A DNA stretch of 36,282 nt from Fibrobacter intestinalis (GTDB lineage Bacteria > Fibrobacterota > Fibrobacteria > Fibrobacterales > Fibrobacteraceae): contig NZ_FUWU01000032.1 of the NCBI RefSeq assembly GCF_900167415.1, positions 1 to 36,282 of the forward strand. Reading direction: 5' to 3'. Position 1 is the stretch's first letter. Each line of letters opens with the position of its first letter. Below are positions 19,340 to 35,884 of the stretch, one piece after another. The notes below the pieces were generated by a model. That model was not told the DNA's origin. It did no database searches and saw nothing but the letters and a program-made list of their open reading frames with translations. The translations under genes were made by a program, and so were the position numbers.

Positions 19340-19392
19340 AAAAGAAATTGTAAAATAATTGAAGATGTTTTTTTAGGGATAAGTAAAATTTG

Positions 19393-19421
19393 TTGACGAA
19401 AAAAACTGGTTTTATTATATT
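19393..19421 (+). promoter_or_regulatory. candidate sigma70-type promoter TTGACG-17-TATATT
   Basis: TTGACG (19393-19398) and TATATT (19416-19421) are spaced by 17 bases. The transcription start would fall at about 19428, which coincides with the ATG at 19429, so the mRNA would be nearly leaderless. It argues against a start at the TTG at 19390. Confidence 0.45.
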
Positions 19422-19428
19422 ATATTTT

Positions 19429-22400
19429 ATGTTTTTAATAAAAAATATTGTTTTAATCTTGTGCTTAGTTTCGTTGTCTTTGGCTGAATTTTCGCCCAAT
19501 TCGGATGCGGGAATGGTTTCAGTCTCTATGGATGGGGAAAGCCTGCAAAATTTGCTTTCGGTTTATGAAAATGCTGGCTATCATGATTTCGGTACAACGG
19601 ACATGTTGAAAAATGTTAAGGAAATTAAACGTGTGAATAAGTATTATTTTTACAATTTTAAAATGGATTTGAACGATAATGATCTAGGGTTTAGTATGGA
19701 TGGGACTTTGGATGCAAATGCTAGGAAAAAAAATTTTGGCGTACCTTGGCATCCTCATGTTAAAACAAGCGGAATAGATGCTTCTGCTAATGTATTTTTT
19801 AAAGATTTTGGAATTTCTGAGGACGGAAAGGTCCATTTGAACGTATGCTTTTCCGACGTTAATGTTGATATATCCGACATCTCTTATGGCTATGGTGCTA
19901 TATTTGATCATTTTGTTGTGGATGGTATTTTTGACGCAGATGAAATAATTAACTCTCAGGTGCAGGCAGAGTTGGATGCAGTTAAGGCAAATTTCAGTGA
20001 TGCTTTTAGCTGCATCGATATCACAAATCATGTGACCGTCAGTTATCCGGAGTTTCTTTCTCCTGTAGGCATTCAACATGCTGGTACGAAAGTGGCGGAT
20101 AATAAAATTTCCGCCTATGGTTGCCCCGTCGCTAAAATCAAGGTTGGCGATGCCGTTGTTATCGGTGACGGCTCGTGCGAAACGGTCGCTTATAATATTG
20201 CTGTATATACGGCAGATGACGTGGGGAATGCGGGGACGGAATCTAAAATAAGCGTTTCCTTGTGTGGAGACGACGCTTTCGGTGGCAGACGGTGCATTGA
20301 CGGTGTATTAAACGACTGGACTAAAAAAGGTCAAATATCGCATTTGCTTTTGGAAAGTTCCGCACTCTTGGTGGATAATTTGTCATTGTCCTTGACCAGC
20401 GATAATTCGGGGAGCAAACCCGGCTGGTATGTGGATTCTGTTTCTGTGGATATGACGATACCCAATAATAGCACATTCCATTATTGGTTTCCAATACACC
20501 GTTGGATAGGCGGCTCCAATAGGCCTACGTCTTTTACATTTCATCAAGCGGACAATCCTCAAGTTTATTCATTCACTGTAACGACAGGGAGCGGTTCCCG
20601 GTTTGAAACGGCAGGGACCGATTCGCATATTTTAGCGGATGCCTGCGATGTAAACGGCAAATGCCTGACATTTTTGTTGGACAAAGACGATCACGACGAT
20701 TTTGAAAAAGGCAGCACCTCCACATACTCAATTGTCACGAACGAAAAATTGGCGAATTTGAAAAGCCTGACGTTGCATAATGTTTATGACGAAAGTAGGC
20801 CTGGCTGGTACGTGCAGGATGTCATGTACAGCCACTATTCCTTTCCTGAAAGTAAAGACCATTCCTTAAAGGACGGCCAGGGGTTTATGTTCCGGCAATG
20901 GCTTGCCGAGGGGGAAAATCAAGGAGCTTATTATACAACGGACCGTTGGAATTATCCAGTCCAAACCTCCGATGAATTTTACCTTTATCCGGTAAATGCC
21001 GATCCGATTTTTTTCATTCGCGATATTTCCGCAACGCGTTATGTGAATGATAATTTTGGCTATAATGTAAGAATAAAGACCAAAAGCGGCGGTGCGTCGG
21101 GAACGGATGCCGATATTGCATTGACGCTGGAGGGCTGTTCCGGAGTAGTAGAAACTTTTGATTTGAATGACGATAAAGACAATTTTGAAAAGGGCGATGA
21201 AGATGTTTTTCTGCTTTCGGGCATTAAAGATTTAAAAGGGATAAAGAAAGTCTCTTTGCATAATGACGGTTCGGGCGATGGTGCCGGATGGTCTCCGGAG
21301 TCCTTGTCGGTAATTCCTGTTGTTTACGGTGGCATTTATGCGCTTCCGTACAATGCGGAATATCGGCATGAATTTACTCGAGGCTTGAATAAGAATGACG
21401 GTTGGGATTGGGAATCGGAAGAGTTGTCATGCCCGGATATGGCTCCTCAATTTATTCCATATGTTTATGAAGTTCATCCTGGTGAGTATTTGAATATTTT
21501 GGGAAAAAATTTGAAAGAGGCGCAAAACATTTCACTTGTTTTGAATAAAACGATAAATCCTGTTTCTGTGGATAGCCGGAACGCTACTTTTTACATTCCG
21601 GAAGACACTCCGCTTGGCGAATATAATTTGGGTTCTGTTTTGATTGACGGACTTTCCCAACAGGTCTTTGTTCATGTTCGAGGTGAAAAACCTGTTCTGG
21701 ACGGCATCGCCGTCTTTCAGGCCAAACCGGGCGACGGCTTTGAAGTATCAATGCGTAATGTAGATTCTTCTTCTCGCTTTTATTTGGGAAATCGCCCGCT
21801 GCAATTTTTGGCGATGTCAAAAAAAGGCGTCTATTTGCAAATCCCGAATGACATGGAAAACGGTATCTACAAATTTAGAACGCAATCCAACGGTTGGGAT
21901 ATTACGTTCGATGCTTCTATTGAAATTGTCGAATCCTCTGTTCCGCATATTTCAGGCATTTCGGGTACCATTGTTTACTCCGGTCAAATCATTGAAATTT
22001 TCGGGAAAAATTTTGGAGATTCAATTAATGCTATAGAAGTGAAATTTGGTGAAAAAACGGGTGGAATCCGGGCTGTTGAAAACGAAAGGATTCAAGTACG
22101 AATTCCTTATGGCGTGTCGGGCGATAGCATTTTGGTAAGGGTATCTCGTGAGGGGATTTGGGCGGGAGAAATCATCAAAATAAAAATTCAGAGCTTGCCC
22201 TGGTTTATGACTTTTGACGATGAACAAAATCTTTGGACTGGCGAAAATGCGAATCTTTCTTTGGATAAAGATATAAAATATGGCGATGTAGGCTACTCCT
22301 TAAAAATACATGGAGCGGGCTATATGCCGATTATTTCGCCTGTATTTAATACATACGAGTTGGGAGCGTTCTCCGACACTCTCCTTCTGGATATCTGGAT

Positions 22401-23205
22401 CCCGGAAAATCAAGCGAACCCCTATTGGTGGGGAGATGTTCAAATGAGCGTGAACATCCCTGCTGCGGGACTTTATAATGCCTGGATTGGGCAAAAGCCA
22501 TTGACAGGCCTGCATTCCGGGTGGAATACGCTTACTTTTGCATTGAATCCGACGATATACTCTGCCTTTGCCGGCGATTATCCAAATGCGACGATTTCTG
22601 TTATATTAAACGCTAATCAAAATGCGGAAGATTTCCGCATAGACAATTTGCGATTTGGCGGTGATATCAAAATTCGTAGGACGGAACATATCGAGGCCAG
22701 TCCCGTATTGAATGTGTATGCCGTGGATTTCATGTCTTTCGATAATATCAACGACTGGTCGTCTAGCGGCACGGAACTTCTTTTTGTGGATTCTCCCAAA
22801 ATGCAAGGTCTAGGCGCAACAGGCATCATGGCGTCCGGTTATACGGAAATAGAAAGCCGCCGTTTTTTACTTTCTGAATTGCAATATGTTTCCGATGTCA
22901 TTTCTCTGGATGTCTATGTGCCGAATCCTCAGCCGAACGATTATTGGGTGGGGAATTTAGGTCTGGGGCTTCGTTGTCCTGATTCCGGAATTTCTATGTA
23001 TCTGGGAAATGTGGATTTGACGCATTTGTTTCGCGAGGAATTCAACAATGTGCGGTTCACGTTGCCGCCGGATGCGCTACAGGCGTTGAAATCCGACGCT
23101 GGGGGATGTAGTTTTTCCGTGTATCTGAATGTGAATAACGGTGCGGGACTTTTCCTGTTGGATAATATGGGCTTTGTCAAAAAAATTGAAGTGGCGGGCA
23201 GGTAG
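19429..23205 (+). CDS. giant exported multidomain protein: three PLAT/LH2, three TIG-like and two jelly-roll domains
   Basis: The protein is 1258 residues. The ATG at 19429 opens a signal peptide (MFLIKNIVLILCLVSLSLAEF). Residues about 20-235: beta-rich region of TULIP/BPI-like appearance, ending IINSQVQAELDAVKANF. Residues 253-345, 379-468 and 544-630: three PLAT/LH2 domains, each with an A-G-T-[DE] strand, a D-x-F-E-K-G-type turn (clear in the last two), and P-G-W-Y/A-G-W before the last strand, then a PLAT-type F-x-x-x-W-L tail. Residues about 673-750, 754-834 and 839-920: TIG/IPT-like Ig folds (LNILGKNL, IEIFGKNFGD). Residues 924-1078 and 1099-1255: two homologous jelly-roll domains sharing M-[ST]-F-D-x-x-x-x-W, P-x-x-x-x-x-x-YW and a terminal D-N-[LM]-x-F. 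PLAT domains bind lipids or protein partners; jelly rolls often bind sugars. No catalytic domain is seen. The next gene starts three bases downstream. Confidence 0.75.
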   Translation: MFLIKNIVLILCLVSLSLAEFSPNSDAGMVSVSMDGESLQNLLSVYENAGYHDFGTTDMLKNVKEIKRVNKYYFYNFKMDLNDNDLGFSMDGTLDANARKKNFGVPWHPHVKTSGIDASANVFFKDFGISEDGKVHLNVCFSDVNVDISDISYGYGAIFDHFVVDGIFDADEIINSQVQAELDAVKANFSDAFSCIDITNHVTVSYPEFLSPVGIQHAGTKVADNKISAYGCPVAKIKVGDAVVIGDGSCETVAYNIAVYTADDVGNAGTESKISVSLCGDDAFGGRRCIDGVLNDWTKKGQISHLLLESSALLVDNLSLSLTSDNSGSKPGWYVDSVSVDMTIPNNSTFHYWFPIHRWIGGSNRPTSFTFHQADNPQVYSFTVTTGSGSRFETAGTDSHILADACDVNGKCLTFLLDKDDHDDFEKGSTSTYSIVTNEKLANLKSLTLHNVYDESRPGWYVQDVMYSHYSFPESKDHSLKDGQGFMFRQWLAEGENQGAYYTTDRWNYPVQTSDEFYLYPVNADPIFFIRDISATRYVNDNFGYNVRIKTKSGGASGTDADIALTLEGCSGVVETFDLNDDKDNFEKGDEDVFLLSGIKDLKGIKKVSLHNDGSGDGAGWSPESLSVIPVVYGGIYALPYNAEYRHEFTRGLNKNDGWDWESEELSCPDMAPQFIPYVYEVHPGEYLNILGKNLKEAQNISLVLNKTINPVSVDSRNATFYIPEDTPLGEYNLGSVLIDGLSQQVFVHVRGEKPVLDGIAVFQAKPGDGFEVSMRNVDSSSRFYLGNRPLQFLAMSKKGVYLQIPNDMENGIYKFRTQSNGWDITFDASIEIVESSVPHISGISGTIVYSGQIIEIFGKNFGDSINAIEVKFGEKTGGIRAVENERIQVRIPYGVSGDSILVRVSREGIWAGEIIKIKIQSLPWFMTFDDEQNLWTGENANLSLDKDIKYGDVGYSLKIHGAGYMPIISPVFNTYELGAFSDTLLLDIWIPENQANPYWWGDVQMSVNIPAAGLYNAWIGQKPLTGLHSGWNTLTFALNPTIYSAFAGDYPNATISVILNANQNAEDFRIDNLRFGGDIKIRRTEHIEASPVLNVYAVDFMSFDNINDWSSSGTELLFVDSPKMQGLGATGIMASGYTEIESRRFLLSELQYVSDVISLDVYVPNPQPNDYWVGNLGLGLRCPDSGISMYLGNVDLTHLFREEFNNVRFTLPPDALQALKSDAGGCSFSVYLNVNNGAGLFLLDNMGFVKKIEVAGR

Positions 23206-30224: not shown

Positions 30225-30372
30225 GTGTTTGTTCGAATTGCCGAACCGCTGCAAATTTTGGAAAGTTTTTTTCGTCGCTCATTTTGATGGGCGAAAAGCG
30301 TTTTGCTTTTTTGCCCGTTCTTCGATTTTTATAAAATCGACGGCTCGAAATTTATCTATTTTCCCGCTCGGC

Positions 30373-31476
30373 ATGCCGTTTTTCAAAAAAATAATCGCTC
30401 TCTGTTTTTTCTGGATGTCGTTGGCGTCTGCGGACGTGGCAATTTTTTCGCAGGACACCATTTCTATGGACACCAGTCGGCAGCAAAAATTCCAGCGTTA
30501 TTCGACGGTTCCTGTTATTGGCTACACCGAAGAAACCCGGATGCAGCTGGGCGCGATGATTCTTTTCTTTTTAAAGCCCGACGAGATCGATGGAAAGGTT
30601 CCGGAAATCGGCGTAACCGCTTATGGGTCTTCCCGCGGGCAATTTCAGTTTACGCTAGAACCCTATTTTTATTTCTGCCGCGACAAAATAAGCCTCTGGT
30701 TCGATTTGGAATACCAGGACTGGTTCGCGAGCTATTTCGGGCGGGGAAACTCTCCCGACATTGACGAGTTTACCAATTACAATCGCAAGAAACTCTATTT
30801 CGGAGCCAAGGTAGAATCTCGGCTAGGTCTTCCCGATTATTTGAAATACGGCTTGGAATTGCATATCGAAAGTTCGGAAATCGATTTTAAAAAGAGCAGC
30901 TCCATGCCGCTTCCGGATCCGCATTCGGGAAATCGCAATGGCGTGGGCTACCTGTTAGGCTTGGATACGCGGGACAATACGAATTGGACGCAGCACGGCT
31001 ATTTAATCGAGTGGAAACAGATTTTTTTCAGCGATCAGCTGGGCGATTATTCCTTTGACAAGATGACTTTGGATATGCGGGCCTATACGATTTTGCCGTT
31101 TAGGACGACGGCGGCTTTTGGTTTCCTGTGGCAACGGGCGAATGGGGACGTCCCCTTTGATATGCTTGCCGGTTCCGATGGAATCAAGCGTTTTCGCGGA
31201 GTGGAAAGCCTGTATTTTGGCGATAACCAGGCGGTGATTTTGCAATCGGAAATCCGAAAGTATTTCGGCTGGCTTTTGGGCGGACACGTGTTTGTGGAAA
31301 GCGGAAAGGCGGGTGCCTATTTCAGCGAACTCATGCGGAATGAATGGCATCGTTCTGTAGGAGCCGGGGCGCTTCTCGCCTTGAATAAGAATGAACGCCT
31401 CTTTGCCCGCGCAGATGTTTCGTGGATTGATTTTGACCATATCGGGCTTTCTTTCTACGTTCGACAAGCCTTTTAA
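30373..31476 (+). CDS. Omp85/BamA-type surface antigen (D15) beta-barrel without POTRA domains
   Basis: The protein is 367 residues from the ATG at 30373, which places a signal peptide (MPFFKKIIALCFFWMSLASA) at the N-terminus. The frame is open back to 30229, but that extension is not signal-like. Strand pairs run throughout. GYLLGLDTRDNTNWTQHGYLIEW and IKRFRGVESLYFGDNQAVILQSEIRKYF match the bacterial surface antigen barrel, the latter containing the [VR]-R-G loop motif of Omp85 proteins. It ends in a Phe (FYVRQAF) as outer-membrane barrels do. No POTRA repeats precede it. It sits 148 bases after speA and 12 bases before the thioesterase. Confidence 0.75.
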   Translation: MPFFKKIIALCFFWMSLASADVAIFSQDTISMDTSRQQKFQRYSTVPVIGYTEETRMQLGAMILFFLKPDEIDGKVPEIGVTAYGSSRGQFQFTLEPYFYFCRDKISLWFDLEYQDWFASYFGRGNSPDIDEFTNYNRKKLYFGAKVESRLGLPDYLKYGLELHIESSEIDFKKSSSMPLPDPHSGNRNGVGYLLGLDTRDNTNWTQHGYLIEWKQIFFSDQLGDYSFDKMTLDMRAYTILPFRTTAAFGFLWQRANGDVPFDMLAGSDGIKRFRGVESLYFGDNQAVILQSEIRKYFGWLLGGHVFVESGKAGAYFSELMRNEWHRSVGAGALLALNKNERLFARADVSWIDFDHIGLSFYVRQAF

Positions 31477-31488
31477 TCGGGAGGAAAT

Positions 31489-31902
31489 GTGGAAATTTGT
31501 CGCTATCGTTCCACCAGCCAAATCGAAGTTCGCTATGCGGAAACGGACCAGATGGGCGTCGTGCACCATTCGGTTTATGCCGTCTGGTTTGAAAAGGCGC
31601 GGACGGATTTTTTCAAGCAGATCGGTTCGACTTATGCGGATGTCGAAAAGGAGGGCTTTGTGTGTCCCGTTCTGGAATTGAACGTCCGGTATCGGAACCC
31701 AACGCATTACGGGGACGTGGTGAATATTGAAACGACTTTGGAACGCATTGGGCATCTGCATTTTCGTTTTCGCTATCGGATTGATGTTGCTGGCAATTTG
31801 TGCACTACCGGCACGACTTTGCACTGCTTTTTGAAAGACGGCAAGCCGACTTGTGAATTGCCCGTTCAGGTTTCCCTGTTCTTTCCGCCCAACGACAAGT
31901 AG
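31489..31902 (+). CDS. hotdog-fold acyl-CoA/ACP thioesterase (YbgC / 4-hydroxybenzoyl-CoA thioesterase family)
   Basis: The protein is 137 residues from a GTG at 31489, with GGGAGG at 31479-31484. The ATG two bases earlier is in another frame. Signature RYAETDQMGVVHHSVYAVWFEKAR, where D20 matches the catalytic Asp of the family. It then has YADVEKEGFVCPVLELNVRY and the strand HLHFRFRYRID. The likely reaction is hydrolysis of an acyl or aryl thioester from CoA or ACP. With an ACP, ketosynthases, FabG and FabZ next to it, it probably releases or edits intermediates of that pathway, as thioesterases do in aryl-polyene clusters. Confidence 0.85.
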   Translation: MEICRYRSTSQIEVRYAETDQMGVVHHSVYAVWFEKARTDFFKQIGSTYADVEKEGFVCPVLELNVRYRNPTHYGDVVNIETTLERIGHLHFRFRYRIDVAGNLCTTGTTLHCFLKDGKPTCELPVQVSLFFPPNDK

Positions 31903-32016: not shown

Positions 32017-32262
32017 ATGAACCAAGAAGAAGTCAAAAGCAAGCTCAAGGCGTTTTTCATGTCGGATCTCGGTGTCGATGGTTCCGTGCTGAAGTACGAT
32101 ACGCCGCTTTTTGGCGAAGAAATCGGTCTGGATTCTGTGGATTCTTTGGAAATCATTTCTTTTGTGGATAGCAATTTTGGCGTTTCCATGACGGGTGCTG
32201 GCAAAGAGCCGTTCCAGAGCATCGATACAATTGCCGACTTTATTGAAAAGCATCAGGCTTAA
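32017..32262 (+). CDS. acyl carrier protein
   Basis: The protein is 81 residues; GAGG precedes the ATG. The phosphopantetheine attachment motif is GLDSVDSLEI with Ser40, where D-S-V-D replaces the D-S-L-D of the primary fatty-acid ACP. Helix 1 (EEVKSKLKAFFMSDLG) and the C-terminal IDTIADFIEKH fit the four-helix fold. The variant motif and its position before a double ketosynthase suggest a specialised ACP rather than the housekeeping AcpP. Confidence 0.9.
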   Translation: MNQEEVKSKLKAFFMSDLGVDGSVLKYDTPLFGEEIGLDSVDSLEIISFVDSNFGVSMTGAGKEPFQSIDTIADFIEKHQA

Positions 32263-32294
32263 GTAAAAAATTATTGTTTTAAACTGGGTATGCC

Positions 32295-34691
32295 ATGACA
32301 TCGAATGATTGCCGTTGTGTTGTTACAGGACTGGGCGTGATTTGCGCCGTCGGAAACAACGTGGAAGAAACGTGGAAAAATGCTTTGAACTCGGTTTCGG
32401 GCATCCATAAAACGACCTCGGTCGATACGGAAAAGTGCTATGCGGATTTGGCGGCGGAGGTTCATTGCGACTCGCTGGACGAGATAGCCGCTCCCGAAGA
32501 AAAGGACAGGGCTTCCAAACTTTGCATCAAGGCGGCCAACGAAGCTCTTGCCGATGCCAATCTTTCGGACTTTGCCGACGATCAGCGTGTTAGCGTGATT
32601 ATCGGTAGCTGTGTCGGTGGCGTTCTCAGTGTAGAACATTATAATCGCCATGGCAGAAACGCTGGCGACATTCCCAAGATGCCCATTGCGTCGATTGCGT
32701 CTCAGGTGGCGGAAACGTGCCGCGCCGGAGGCATTGTGACGAATGTGGCAAACGCCTGCGCAGCTGGAACGATTTCGATAGCCCTCGCTTGCGATTTGAT
32801 TCGGGCGGGCAAAGCGGACGTGGTGATTGCGGGCGGAGCGGACTCTTTTGCGTCCGTCCCATATTCCGGTTTTCTTTCGTTGCACGCTTTGGATGAAAAC
32901 GGCTGCTCTCCTTTTAACCATTGCAACGGCATTACTTTGGGCGAAGGCGCGGGCATTGTCATTGTCGAATCGTTTGAACACGCGCAGAAGCGCGGAGCTA
33001 AAACGTATTGCGAAGTTTTGGGATCCGGAGTTACGAGCGATGCTCACCACATTACGGCTCCTCGGGAAGACGCCCTCTGCTTGACCGAAGCGATGGAACG
33101 CGCCGTCCGAAATTCGGGAATCCGGAAAAACGAAATCGGCTATGTAAATGCGCATGGCACGGGCACGGGCAAGAACGACGAAGCGGAAATCACCGCTTTC
33201 CAGAAATTCTTTGCCGAAGAAAATCCGACGGTAAGCGTCAGTTCGACTAAAGTGATGACCGGTCACTGCCTGGGAGCCGCCGGTGCCATTGAAGCGGTCT
33301 TCAGCATTAAGGCCTTGACGACGGATACGGTTCTCCCGACTTTGCATTATTCCGAAGAGGACTCCGTCGCTTTGCGGGAAAAAGTGGGCTCTCTGGATTT
33401 TGTGCAGAACGTCCCGCGCCAAAAAGAACTCCGGTGCGTCATGAGCAATAACGTGGCTTTTGGCGGAACCAATGCGAGCATCGTATTTTCCAAGGATGCC
33501 GGCGATGTCTCTGCTTTGACGGCGAAGAATTCTAAAATCGCCGTAACGGGACTCGGAATTGTAAGTCCTCTTGGCAACAGCAAGGCTGCCTATCTTGCCG
33601 CTGTCGAAAAAGATGCAAAGCCCGAAAGCGCGTCCATCCATTCGACTATCGTTCTGGACGACTATAAAGAACTGGGCATCAAAATGGCATTCTACCGCAA
33701 ACTTGATAATCTCGGACAGTTGCAGACCGTATCGGGAATGCGAGCCTTGCAGGACGCCGGGTTCAAAGTCACCGAGGAAAATGCAAAAAATATCGGTATT
33801 ATCGTCGGAACGAGCGAAGGCGGCCTTGGCGCCACTTACGATTTTGAAGAACTGATTGCGAAGCTGGGCAATGCGCAGGGGAGCGCTTTCAAGTTCCCGC
33901 ATACGGTTTACAATGCGGCTGGCGGCTATCTTTCGATTTGTTCCGGAATCAAGGGCTACGGCGTGACGATTACGACAGGTCCGCTTTCTGGACTGGACAG
34001 CATCGGATACTCCATGAATGTCATTCACGACGGTCAGGAGCAAGCGATGATGGCGACAGGTTCGGATGAAAATCTGCCGATTATTACGGAATTTGCCCAA
34101 AAGATGCAAGTCGCTTCGGATTCCGTTACCGCTCCTTATTCTGGTTCGTCGGGTTGTGTCATGGGCGACGGCAGCGTTTCGATTCTCTTGGAAACGGAAG
34201 ATTCCGCACAGGCTCGTGGCGCAAAAATTTATTGCTATGCGCTCGGTTATGGGCATGGCCGTAAGAACGTGAAGTTCGGGCACATCTCCGGCTCGGGCGA
34301 GGCTCTGGATCTGGCAATTCGTTCCGCAGTAGTGGATGCGGGAGTTTCCCTTGACGAAATCGATGCGGTTTGCGGATTTGCGAACGGCTGCAAAAAATTG
34401 GACGATATCGAAAAAGCGTCCCTTTCCCGCGTGTTCGGCGACCGTTTGGAAACGCTTCCGCTGGTGGAAGTGAAGGATCGCGTCGGCGAAGGCCGTGCGG
34501 GTGCAGCGGCTCTTGCTGCTGCGGAAGCGGCACTTCTTTTGAGTGGGGAACTGCAACGCGAAAACGCTTACTTTATCGGTAAAGACGGCGCGGTTCAAAA
34601 GAAAAGCATCGAATCGGTCGGACTGAAAAAAGTTTTGGTGATTTCATTTGCCACCGGCGGCTCTTACAGTGCTGTCGTTCTGGGAAAATAA
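32295..34691 (+). CDS. fused double 3-oxoacyl-ACP synthase: active KS plus degenerate KS (KS-alpha / chain-length-factor-like)
   Basis: The protein is 798 residues, twice a FabF. Domain 1 (about 7-405) is a complete KAS: Cys155 in VANACAAGT, His287 in NAHGTGTG, Lys319 and His324 in TKVMTGHCLGAAG, and NNVAFGGTN near its end. Domain 2 (about 413-798) begins SKIAVTGLGIVSPLG and keeps the thiolase fold, but the nucleophile region reads TTGPLSGLDS (Pro563 where Cys is expected), the first His region is CGFANGCKK, and the second is VKDRVGEGRAG. All three catalytic residues are thus gone. In type II polyketide and aryl-polyene systems an active KS pairs with an inactive KS-beta/CLF that sets chain length, normally on separate chains. 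Here they are covalently joined. Downstream are FabG and FabZ. Confidence 0.88.
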   Translation: MTSNDCRCVVTGLGVICAVGNNVEETWKNALNSVSGIHKTTSVDTEKCYADLAAEVHCDSLDEIAAPEEKDRASKLCIKAANEALADANLSDFADDQRVSVIIGSCVGGVLSVEHYNRHGRNAGDIPKMPIASIASQVAETCRAGGIVTNVANACAAGTISIALACDLIRAGKADVVIAGGADSFASVPYSGFLSLHALDENGCSPFNHCNGITLGEGAGIVIVESFEHAQKRGAKTYCEVLGSGVTSDAHHITAPREDALCLTEAMERAVRNSGIRKNEIGYVNAHGTGTGKNDEAEITAFQKFFAEENPTVSVSSTKVMTGHCLGAAGAIEAVFSIKALTTDTVLPTLHYSEEDSVALREKVGSLDFVQNVPRQKELRCVMSNNVAFGGTNASIVFSKDAGDVSALTAKNSKIAVTGLGIVSPLGNSKAAYLAAVEKDAKPESASIHSTIVLDDYKELGIKMAFYRKLDNLGQLQTVSGMRALQDAGFKVTEENAKNIGIIVGTSEGGLGATYDFEELIAKLGNAQGSAFKFPHTVYNAAGGYLSICSGIKGYGVTITTGPLSGLDSIGYSMNVIHDGQEQAMMATGSDENLPIITEFAQKMQVASDSVTAPYSGSSGCVMGDGSVSILLETEDSAQARGAKIYCYALGYGHGRKNVKFGHISGSGEALDLAIRSAVVDAGVSLDEIDAVCGFANGCKKLDDIEKASLSRVFGDRLETLPLVEVKDRVGEGRAGAAALAAAEAALLLSGELQRENAYFIGKDGAVQKKSIESVGLKKVLVISFATGGSYSAVVLGK

Positions 34692-34706
34692 TTGAGTGAG
34701 GGTCAG

Positions 34707-35438
34707 ATGAAAGTTGCGCTGGTCACAGGAGCTTCTAAAGGCATAGGCAAGGCTTGCGCCCTGCGTCTTGCTCAAGACGGCTATACGGTCGTCGTGAATT
34801 ATTCCAGTTCGGACGCTGCGGCTCAAGAAACGCTTTCGCAAATCCAGGCGGCGGGCGGAAACGGAATGCTTTACAAAGCGGATGTTTCCAAACTCGACCA
34901 GGTGAAATTAATGGTTCGCGAGGTCTTCAAGGCTTACGGCAGAATTGACGTGCTGGTAAACAATGCGGGCATCGTCCGGGACGAATATCTGCTGATGATC
35001 AATCCGGATACTCTTGACAAGTGCATGGATTTGAACGTTAAAGGCTACATCTATTGCGCACAGCAAGTCGCTCTCAAAATGTTCAAACAGAAGTCCGGCG
35101 TCATCATCAATATGTCGTCGGTCAGCTCCAAATTTGCGCTCGCTGGCCAGAGCGTTTACAGCGCGACCAAGGGTGCGGTCAATTCGCTGACGCAGACGCT
35201 CGCCAAGGAACTCGGCGGTTACGGCATCCGCGTGAACGCTGTTGCTCCGGGATTTATCCAGACCGAAATGATCGATGCGATTCCCGAAGACAAGCGCAAG
35301 GAATATGTGGAGAAAATTCCGCTGAAACGTTTCGGTTCTCCAGAAGACGTGGCAAATATGGTTTCTGCTCTCGCTTCGGACCAATTTGCGTATGTCACGG
35401 GACAGGTTTTTGTTCTCGACGGAGGACTTTCCCTGTGA
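34707..35438 (+). CDS. fabG: 3-oxoacyl-ACP reductase (FabG family)
   Basis: The protein is 243 residues. The ATG at 34707 has GAGGG just upstream; a TTG at 34692 would add five residues. Classical SDR: NADP loop TGASKGIGKA (7-16), NNAG (85-88), Asn110, Ser138 of INMSSV, Tyr151 and Lys155 of YSATK, and PGFIQTEM. It ends VTGQVFVLDGGLSL, typical of FabG. It reduces the 3-keto group of acyl-ACP with NADPH after each condensation. It may belong to the specialised KS pathway rather than to primary fatty-acid synthesis. The stop overlaps the FabZ start (GTGA). Confidence 0.92.
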   Translation: MKVALVTGASKGIGKACALRLAQDGYTVVVNYSSSDAAAQETLSQIQAAGGNGMLYKADVSKLDQVKLMVREVFKAYGRIDVLVNNAGIVRDEYLLMINPDTLDKCMDLNVKGYIYCAQQVALKMFKQKSGVIINMSSVSSKFALAGQSVYSATKGAVNSLTQTLAKELGGYGIRVNAVAPGFIQTEMIDAIPEDKRKEYVEKIPLKRFGSPEDVANMVSALASDQFAYVTGQVFVLDGGLSL

Positions 35439-35884
35439 GCATGAACATCTATGAAATCAGCCAGCGCATTGCACAGCGTCCGCCGTTCCAGATGGTGGAA
35501 AAAGTCATCGAACTCGTTCCGAACGAATCGGCGACGGGCATTAAAAATGTGAGCGTGAACGAGCCTTATTTTATGGGGCATTTTCCGGGCGCTCCCATTA
35601 TGCCGGGCGTTCTGATTGTAGAAAGTTGCGCCCAGTTGTGCTCGCTTGTCATTGAGAAGAAGCCCGAAGATCTGGACGACAAGCTTTACGTCCTTCTGAA
35701 AATCGACGGATTCAAATTTGTAAAGCCTGTTATTCCTGGCGATCAATTGGAAATGACCGTCACCAAAACGAAGGGCGGCGGCGTTCTTGTCGGGTTCAGC
35801 TGCGTTGTTAAAGTGAACGGCAATGTTCACGCCAAGGGTGAACTGACCTTTACGACGATTCCCAAGGAAAGTCTGGGAAAGTGA
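35435..35884 (+). CDS. fabZ: 3-hydroxyacyl-ACP dehydratase (FabZ family)
   Basis: The protein is 149 residues. The GTG at 35435 is chosen because GGAGGA (35421-35426) lies eight bases upstream and the GTGA overlaps the fabG stop; an ATG at 35441 is the alternative. Hotdog fold with the signature YFMGHFPGAPIMPGVLIVES: His49 and Glu63 are the catalytic pair. RPPFQMVEKV at the start is the usual FabZ N-terminal strand. It dehydrates 3-hydroxyacyl-ACP to the trans-2-enoyl form. No enoyl reductase follows in this window, which would leave double bonds in the chain. Confidence 0.92.
   Translation: MSMNIYEISQRIAQRPPFQMVEKVIELVPNESATGIKNVSVNEPYFMGHFPGAPIMPGVLIVESCAQLCSLVIEKKPEDLDDKLYVLLKIDGFKFVKPVIPGDQLEMTVTKTKGGGVLVGFSCVVKVNGNVHAKGELTFTTIPKESLGK

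Follow-up and report, generated by a model that had tools for sequence, protein, structure and literature searches.

The open reading frame at positions 32295-34691 (+ strand) of the window, by which we mean the whole 36,282-nucleotide stretch of Fibrobacter intestinalis DNA analysed here, encodes two full ketosynthase (KS) folds within a single chain, of which the N-terminal half is predicted from its residues to be an active KS and the C-terminal half to be an inactive one. The best reading of this protein is as an intramolecular pair of a KS and a chain-length factor (CLF, or KS-beta) that serves a small, stand-alone, type-II-like reducing pathway without an enoyl reductase, the product of which is passed to membrane lipid. 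In most descriptions of type II KS-CLF pairs the two subunits are separate polypeptides.

Results

Architecture and catalytic residues

The frame is free of stops over 798 aa, and Pfam recognises in its product two ketoacyl-synt N/C domain pairs and no further catalytic domains (Table 1). In the N half the motifs NACAAG (at 153), HGTGTG (at 287) and TKVMTGH (at 318) supply Cys155, His287, and Lys319 with His324, respectively, which bears out the active site that an earlier note on this DNA had assigned to the first domain; the C-H-K-H set occurs without exception in 12 family members, and all four residues are invariant in 32 aligned fusions. The columns of E. coli FabF C164/H304/K336/H341 are occupied in the C half by P563, F695, K727 and E732, such that the Cys and both His are lost and the catalytic Lys, which the earlier note does not mention for this domain, is kept, and a BLASTP comparison of one half with the other (23% identity over 337 aa) returned the same pairing of residues. 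The proline that the earlier note had seen in place of the Cys, and the Glu-Gly that it had seen in place of the second His, are accordingly found at P563 and E732, but the Asn/Gly it had put at the site of the first His lies two to three residues downstream of the true column, which holds Phe695. Across the 12 family members the catalytic columns of the C half contain Cys or His in none and Lys in 11, with Glu in the second-His column of all 12 and Phe or Ala in the first-His column.

The replacement of the Cys by Gln is usual in aromatic-polyketide CLFs. Gln is absent from this column in the C half, where Pro stands instead; Pro is limited to Fibrobacter, and the Clostridial relatives carry A, V, I, F or Y. 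Pro was considered as a signature of the CLF lineage and was rejected owing to this restriction among the aligned relatives. Since the sampled CLFs have Gln in one case (Str94_CLF) and Lys in another (Aku_CLF), Gln is not universal among CLFs and was not used to recognise a KS-CLF pair. What is found in this protein is an active KS with Cys-His-His and Lys, joined to a partner that has the KS fold and neither Cys nor His. The whole protein scores 479.9 bits against the FabF equivalog model TIGR03150, below its cut-off of 493.75. Purifying selection is strong on both halves and somewhat less so on the C half (omega for the closest pairs of about 0.01-0.05 and 0.04-0.09, respectively).

Table 1. 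Positions of the fused gene, its catalytic codons and the neighbouring features in the window.
Feature	Position	Strand	Remark
Omp85-family outer-membrane protein, upstream	30229..31476	+	conserved beside the module in some Fibrobacter genomes; membership uncertain
4HBT (YbgC/FadM/MenI-like) thioesterase	31489..31902	+	adjoins the module in one Fibrobacter subgroup only
ACP, GLDSVD phosphopantetheine site	32017..32262	+	59% identical to L. eligens operon ACP
N-terminal KS half, FabF-like, residues 1-401	32295..33497	+	
Cys155 codon; His287 codon	32757-32759; 33153-33155	+	N half
Lys319 codon; His324 codon	33249-33251; 33264-33266	+	N half
Short linker, about residues 402-413, around DAGDVSALTAKN	33498..33533	+	from sequence; helix/strand gap in model
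C-terminal KS-beta/CLF-like half, residues 414-798	33534..34688	+	
Pro563 codon; Phe695 codon	33981-33983; 34377-34379	+	C half catalytic columns
Lys727 codon; Glu732 codon	34473-34475; 34488-34490	+	C half catalytic columns
FabG-like KR, start codon uncertain	34692..35438	+	76% identical to L. eligens operon KR
FabZ-like DH	35438..35884	+	69% identical to L. eligens operon DH
Intergenic repeat at contig end	35986..36282		

Recurrence of the fusion

The window corresponds to a single contig in a draft assembly, and an assembly or sequencing error that joined two genes, a danger the earlier note had itself raised, has to be weighed. When the C half was searched in 167 Fibrobacterota genomes of 40 genera it was present in 58, confined to two genera (g1 and g2); an open frame of at least 799 aa holds it in 57 of these, the 58th being cut by a contig edge, and the fusion is intact in the single-contig genome G003. 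In the relatives searched first the full fusion is conserved at 79-88% identity, and another 30 Fibrobacter loci also carry it. With the C half as query against plasmids, the megaplasmid of Lachnospira eligens ATCC 27750 was hit (54% identity, E 3e-119), a match far stronger than any other among those listed; there the fusion is annotated as a single 797-aa CDS (WP_041688922.1), with 60% identity along its full length, and fused CDSs stand in two complete L. eligens plasmid records, a second strain included. Of 391 and 148 Clostridial genomes in two samples, four in each carried the fusion, every time as a single open frame (748-796 aa). Such recurrence across Fibrobacterota and L. eligens refutes an artefact, to which we assign a negligible probability.

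Phylogeny and origin

A maximum-likelihood tree was built from 61 sequences, KS halves and single KSs (PfaC not among them), and in it the 12 N halves and the 12 C halves each formed one group, supported at 100/100 and far apart, and the result was repeated with other sampling. The inner branching of the two clades is closely similar, and in N and C clades alike Fibrobacter falls inside the Clostridial members, beside L. eligens and G520; the trees show the two halves to have been inherited together as one chain. The earlier note had named a recent internal duplication of a FabF gene as the finding that would overturn its view, and a decaying second copy would explain both the KS fold common to the two halves and their place in a single ORF. 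The halves are only 23% identical, however, the C half is under purifying selection, and placing both halves in one clade is rejected (p-AU 0.00012), by which the tree refutes a recent duplication under the model used; we regard it as extremely improbable.

A branch supported at 99/97 has on one side the C halves of the fused proteins and two unfused KS-beta from other Fibrobacterota (L033 and L035), and on its other side, yet adjoining it, the sampled aromatic-polyketide CLFs; a second branch, supported at 87/84, has every sampled full-size CLF on the same side. By this placement the C halves are a CLF lineage apart from the aromatic-polyketide CLFs, so that the suggestion of a distinct lineage in the earlier note holds in its main part, if not in its choice of Pro as the mark. 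In L033 (2745-5183) and L035 (8495-10996) the KS-alpha and KS-beta genes of this lineage are adjacent, unfused and in the same order, and these gene pairs are possibly the state that preceded fusion. Further fused KS-CLFs of the same broad group occur in Streptomyces (L095, 788 aa), on Priestia megaterium pBM500 (L101, 809 aa) and in the Fibrobacterota G011, G048 and G055, and a single origin for all fused KS-CLFs was not rejected (p-AU 0.22 for the N halves and 0.14 for the C halves).

Since Fibrobacter nests among the Clostridia in both halves, the sequences fit an old fusion that was passed, along with its operon, from Clostridia to the Fibrobacter ancestor, a direction that we infer from the nesting together with the patchy distribution. 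The presence of the fusion in Fibrobacter and in gut Lachnospiraceae is apparently due to gene transfer.

The more distant fusions have clusters of their own. The Streptomyces protein (L095:10012-12378, on a plasmid of Streptomyces sp. NBC_01420) has His at the Cys column of its C half and is encoded in a reducing type II cluster that contains two KS genes besides; relatives are found on 16 Streptomyces plasmids. The clusters of P. megaterium (L101:6865-10388) and of Fibrobacteraceae G011 (L036:4065-9957) each combine a fused KS-CLF with FabG, FabZ, ACP and a GcvT-like protein (aminomethyltransferase fold). In G055 (L034:6588-12709) a 1263-aa protein consists of a radical-SAM-like N-terminal part and a KS-CLF, and a second KS-CLF fusion of 777 aa follows immediately.

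Predicted structure

An AlphaFold2 model of the full-length protein, built from 32 fused homologues, is of middling confidence (mean pLDDT 75, pTM 0.86). Its top Foldseek match among solved structures is 6riw, the KS-CLF didomain of PfaC (924 columns, TM 0.73 by query length), as was likewise the case for a first, poorer model; single KS chains reach a TM by query length of 0.43-0.45. A value of 0.73 is well above this one-domain level, which argues that the halves are arranged much as in 6riw, and the mutual placement of the halves in the model would accordingly resemble that of PfaC, whose didomain structure was reportedly determined by Santin et al. in 2020. The rmsd between model and 6riw is 8.8 Å over both domains, and details of the interface are not to be trusted. 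The VIA-align rows cover the N half only. The covalent KS-alpha/KS-beta pair described in the earlier note is supported by composition, by co-inheritance and by the predicted fold; two chains could nevertheless pair crosswise in place of forming an intramolecular dimer.

Gene neighbourhood

The gene order in Fibrobacter is ACP, KS-CLF, reductase (KR), dehydratase (DH), lysophospholipid acyltransferase (LPLAT) and patatin, with a flavoprotein downstream in two loci; the first four genes are found in almost all Fibrobacter loci and LPLAT-patatin in most. The L. eligens operon reads TetR, hydrolase, ACP, KS-CLF, FabG, FabZ, FabD, AccD, AccA, FMN-reductase-like flavoprotein and PlsX, and the recurring Clostridial order is LPLAT, ACP, KS-CLF, KR, DH and flavoprotein (patatin first in one case), the flavoprotein being present in every Clostridial operon whose downstream side is intact. 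The KR of the window, so close to its L. eligens counterpart, is 37% identical to E. coli FabG and 37-42% identical to the housekeeping FabGs sampled. No enoyl reductase was recognised within the module in any lineage looked at, and no starter-loading gene is visible in it. In three Clostridia the module adjoins a FAS operon that has a FabK-type reductase. When FabK was sought across the genome of the present strain only a 22-bit fragment came up, and the ordinary enoyl reductase of the strain must therefore be of another type.

In this genome LPLAT and patatin are encoded on contig C107, about 9 kb from the contig start, with a 494-aa ORF after them, as is also seen in the relative L027. The first bases of C107 (L111:6-115) carry the repeat found at the end of C21, the contig of the window; this shared repeat is an imperfect 141-nt tandem intergenic repeat at which the assembly breaks, and if C21 and C107 adjoin, about 9 kb of other genes seem to divide the operon of this strain ahead of LPLAT. 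Elsewhere in the window, 19390-23205 encodes a 1271-aa protein with PLAT/LH2 and IPT/TIG domains.

Discussion

Proposed function and alternatives

We consider it likely that the fused protein is an elongating KS with a built-in partner subunit, acting in a module for unsaturated-acyl lipid, and the fused gene and its helper genes probably make an unusual acyl chain for membrane lipids. The halves would pack as an intramolecular KS-CLF pseudo-dimer, in which the N half, judging by its family, would condense malonyl units on the neighbouring ACP, while the C half would complete the dimer, line and shape the acyl pocket and limit chain length without performing chemistry. The neighbouring KR and DH would respectively reduce and dehydrate each unit. 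Because no enoyl reductase is recognised in the module, the chain most likely retains some or all of its double bonds, in the polyene-like manner of highly reducing type II PKS products; the polyene nature of the product, argued by analogy, is the weakest step, and taken alone we hold it to be slightly short of an even chance. Reduction in trans by the enoyl reductase of ordinary fatty acid synthesis is conceivable, and the FMN-reductase-like flavoprotein of the Clostridial operons could reduce the chain. The conserved LPLAT (PlsX in L. eligens) may then move the chain onto membrane lipid, and patatin may remodel the resulting lipid. Fusion would hold the subunits at 1:1 and prevent pairing with the housekeeping FabF.

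The module might instead supply unsaturated fatty acids, in that, as with FabN/FabO, the DH would also isomerise a double bond and the KS pair extend the cis intermediate, with an ordinary enoyl reductase finishing the chain and the C half tuning selectivity for unsaturated chains. The FabG/FabZ-like KR and DH are in keeping with this, as are the FabD, AccD, AccA and PlsX that the L. eligens operon adds, which are what bulk fatty acid supply needs, and the position of the module beside the FAS operon in three Clostridia. However, the DH is FabZ-like by HMM (a FabN-type isomerase is not distinguishable by sequence here), and the known FabN/FabO-type systems use an ordinary homodimeric KS, not a KS-CLF, and we therefore judge this alternative unlikely. 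Still less probable, in our estimation, is a C half that acts as a decarboxylating or starter-making partner, akin to a priming KS, and prepares or retains the starter that the N half uses; the lack of a starter-loading gene and the active-site Lys retained in nearly all C halves speak for such a role, whereas the two His that support malonyl decarboxylation are replaced in every one of the 12 C halves and the Cys column lacks Gln.

Returning to the elongating KS with its built-in partner, a wider picture may be offered tentatively, and with more doubt than conviction: a previously undescribed lipid-modifying pathway, spread horizontally among anaerobic gut bacteria, in which a self-contained KS-CLF with its own ACP, KR, DH and LPLAT would furnish polyene or otherwise unsaturated membrane lipids, and whose KS-CLF lineage extends to Streptomyces, Priestia and other Fibrobacterota. 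From the operon an unknown acyl lipid is predicted for anaerobes abundant in the rumen and the human gut (Fibrobacter, Lachnospira eligens), for which no report of polyenes was found in the literature covered, most subscription journals lying outside it. Within the same coverage, a type II PKS catalogue and review included, no description was found of a natural stand-alone KS-CLF fusion outside PUFA synthases. Such a protein is a ready single-chain tool for studies of chain-length control and for engineering, and annotation pipelines label the fused gene only as 'beta-ketoacyl-ACP synthase'.

Comparison with known systems

The covalent KS-CLF is not new in itself, as PfaC sets the precedent. 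It is known from PfaC of the gammaproteobacterial PUFA synthase, solved as 6riw (PMC12895367), and an intramolecular dimer has been proposed for the PfaC KS-CLF (PMC13311796); both sources cite Santin et al. (2020). Like the fusion, PfaC places an active KS and then a CLF on one chain; the two are only 16% identical in structural alignment, however, and whereas PfaC belongs to a large multidomain synthase of type I-like build, the fusion stands alone with separate ACP, KR and DH genes. With its 798 aa and two KS domains alone it falls outside the Pfa synthases, whose KS-CLF lies within a multidomain protein with additional catalytic domains and PfaA-type partners. The PfaC sequence matches the distant fusion L037 over the KS part only.

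The N half is about 37% identical to B. subtilis FabF in structural alignment, with all catalytic residues present, whereas the C half lacks the Cys and both His. The NCBIfam model of PigJ (prodigiosin), which we take to be a two-KS protein, matches the N half only, at 58 bits against a cut-off of 900, and belongs to a different pathway. The aryl polyene (APE) clusters with ApeO-ApeC/ApeR (E. coli CFT073, L098; Fibrobacter's own, L038) share with the module a KS-CLF, FabG-like KR, dehydratase, ACP, thioesterase and lysophospholipid acyltransferase, but there ApeO is separate from ApeC, which is of half size, the APE KSs fall in other branches of the tree than the fusion halves, and the module is without acyl-CoA ligase, methyltransferase, glycosyltransferase, MMPL and LolA. 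The aryl starter genes and the ApeR/MMPL/glycosyltransferase set are absent from the module in Fibrobacter and Clostridia, and it is not an aryl polyene cluster. The APE-type cluster L038 is a separate locus (contig C58, 6001-26000) with unfused KSs and a gene order like that of E. coli CFT073.

A further likeness is to the polyene-making, highly reducing type II PKSs, which are defined by KS-CLF, KR and DH (PMC10698177). That gene set, with ACP, is present at 32017-35884 and in the orthologous loci without being joined into a type I protein, save that KS and CLF are themselves fused, and it is shared with the actinomycete ishigamide system, in which the KS and CLF (Iga11-Iga12, 6KXD) are, unlike the fusion, separate subunits. 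The Streptomyces plasmid cluster L095 does contain a KS-CLF fusion, which is of the same broad lineage as the present one.
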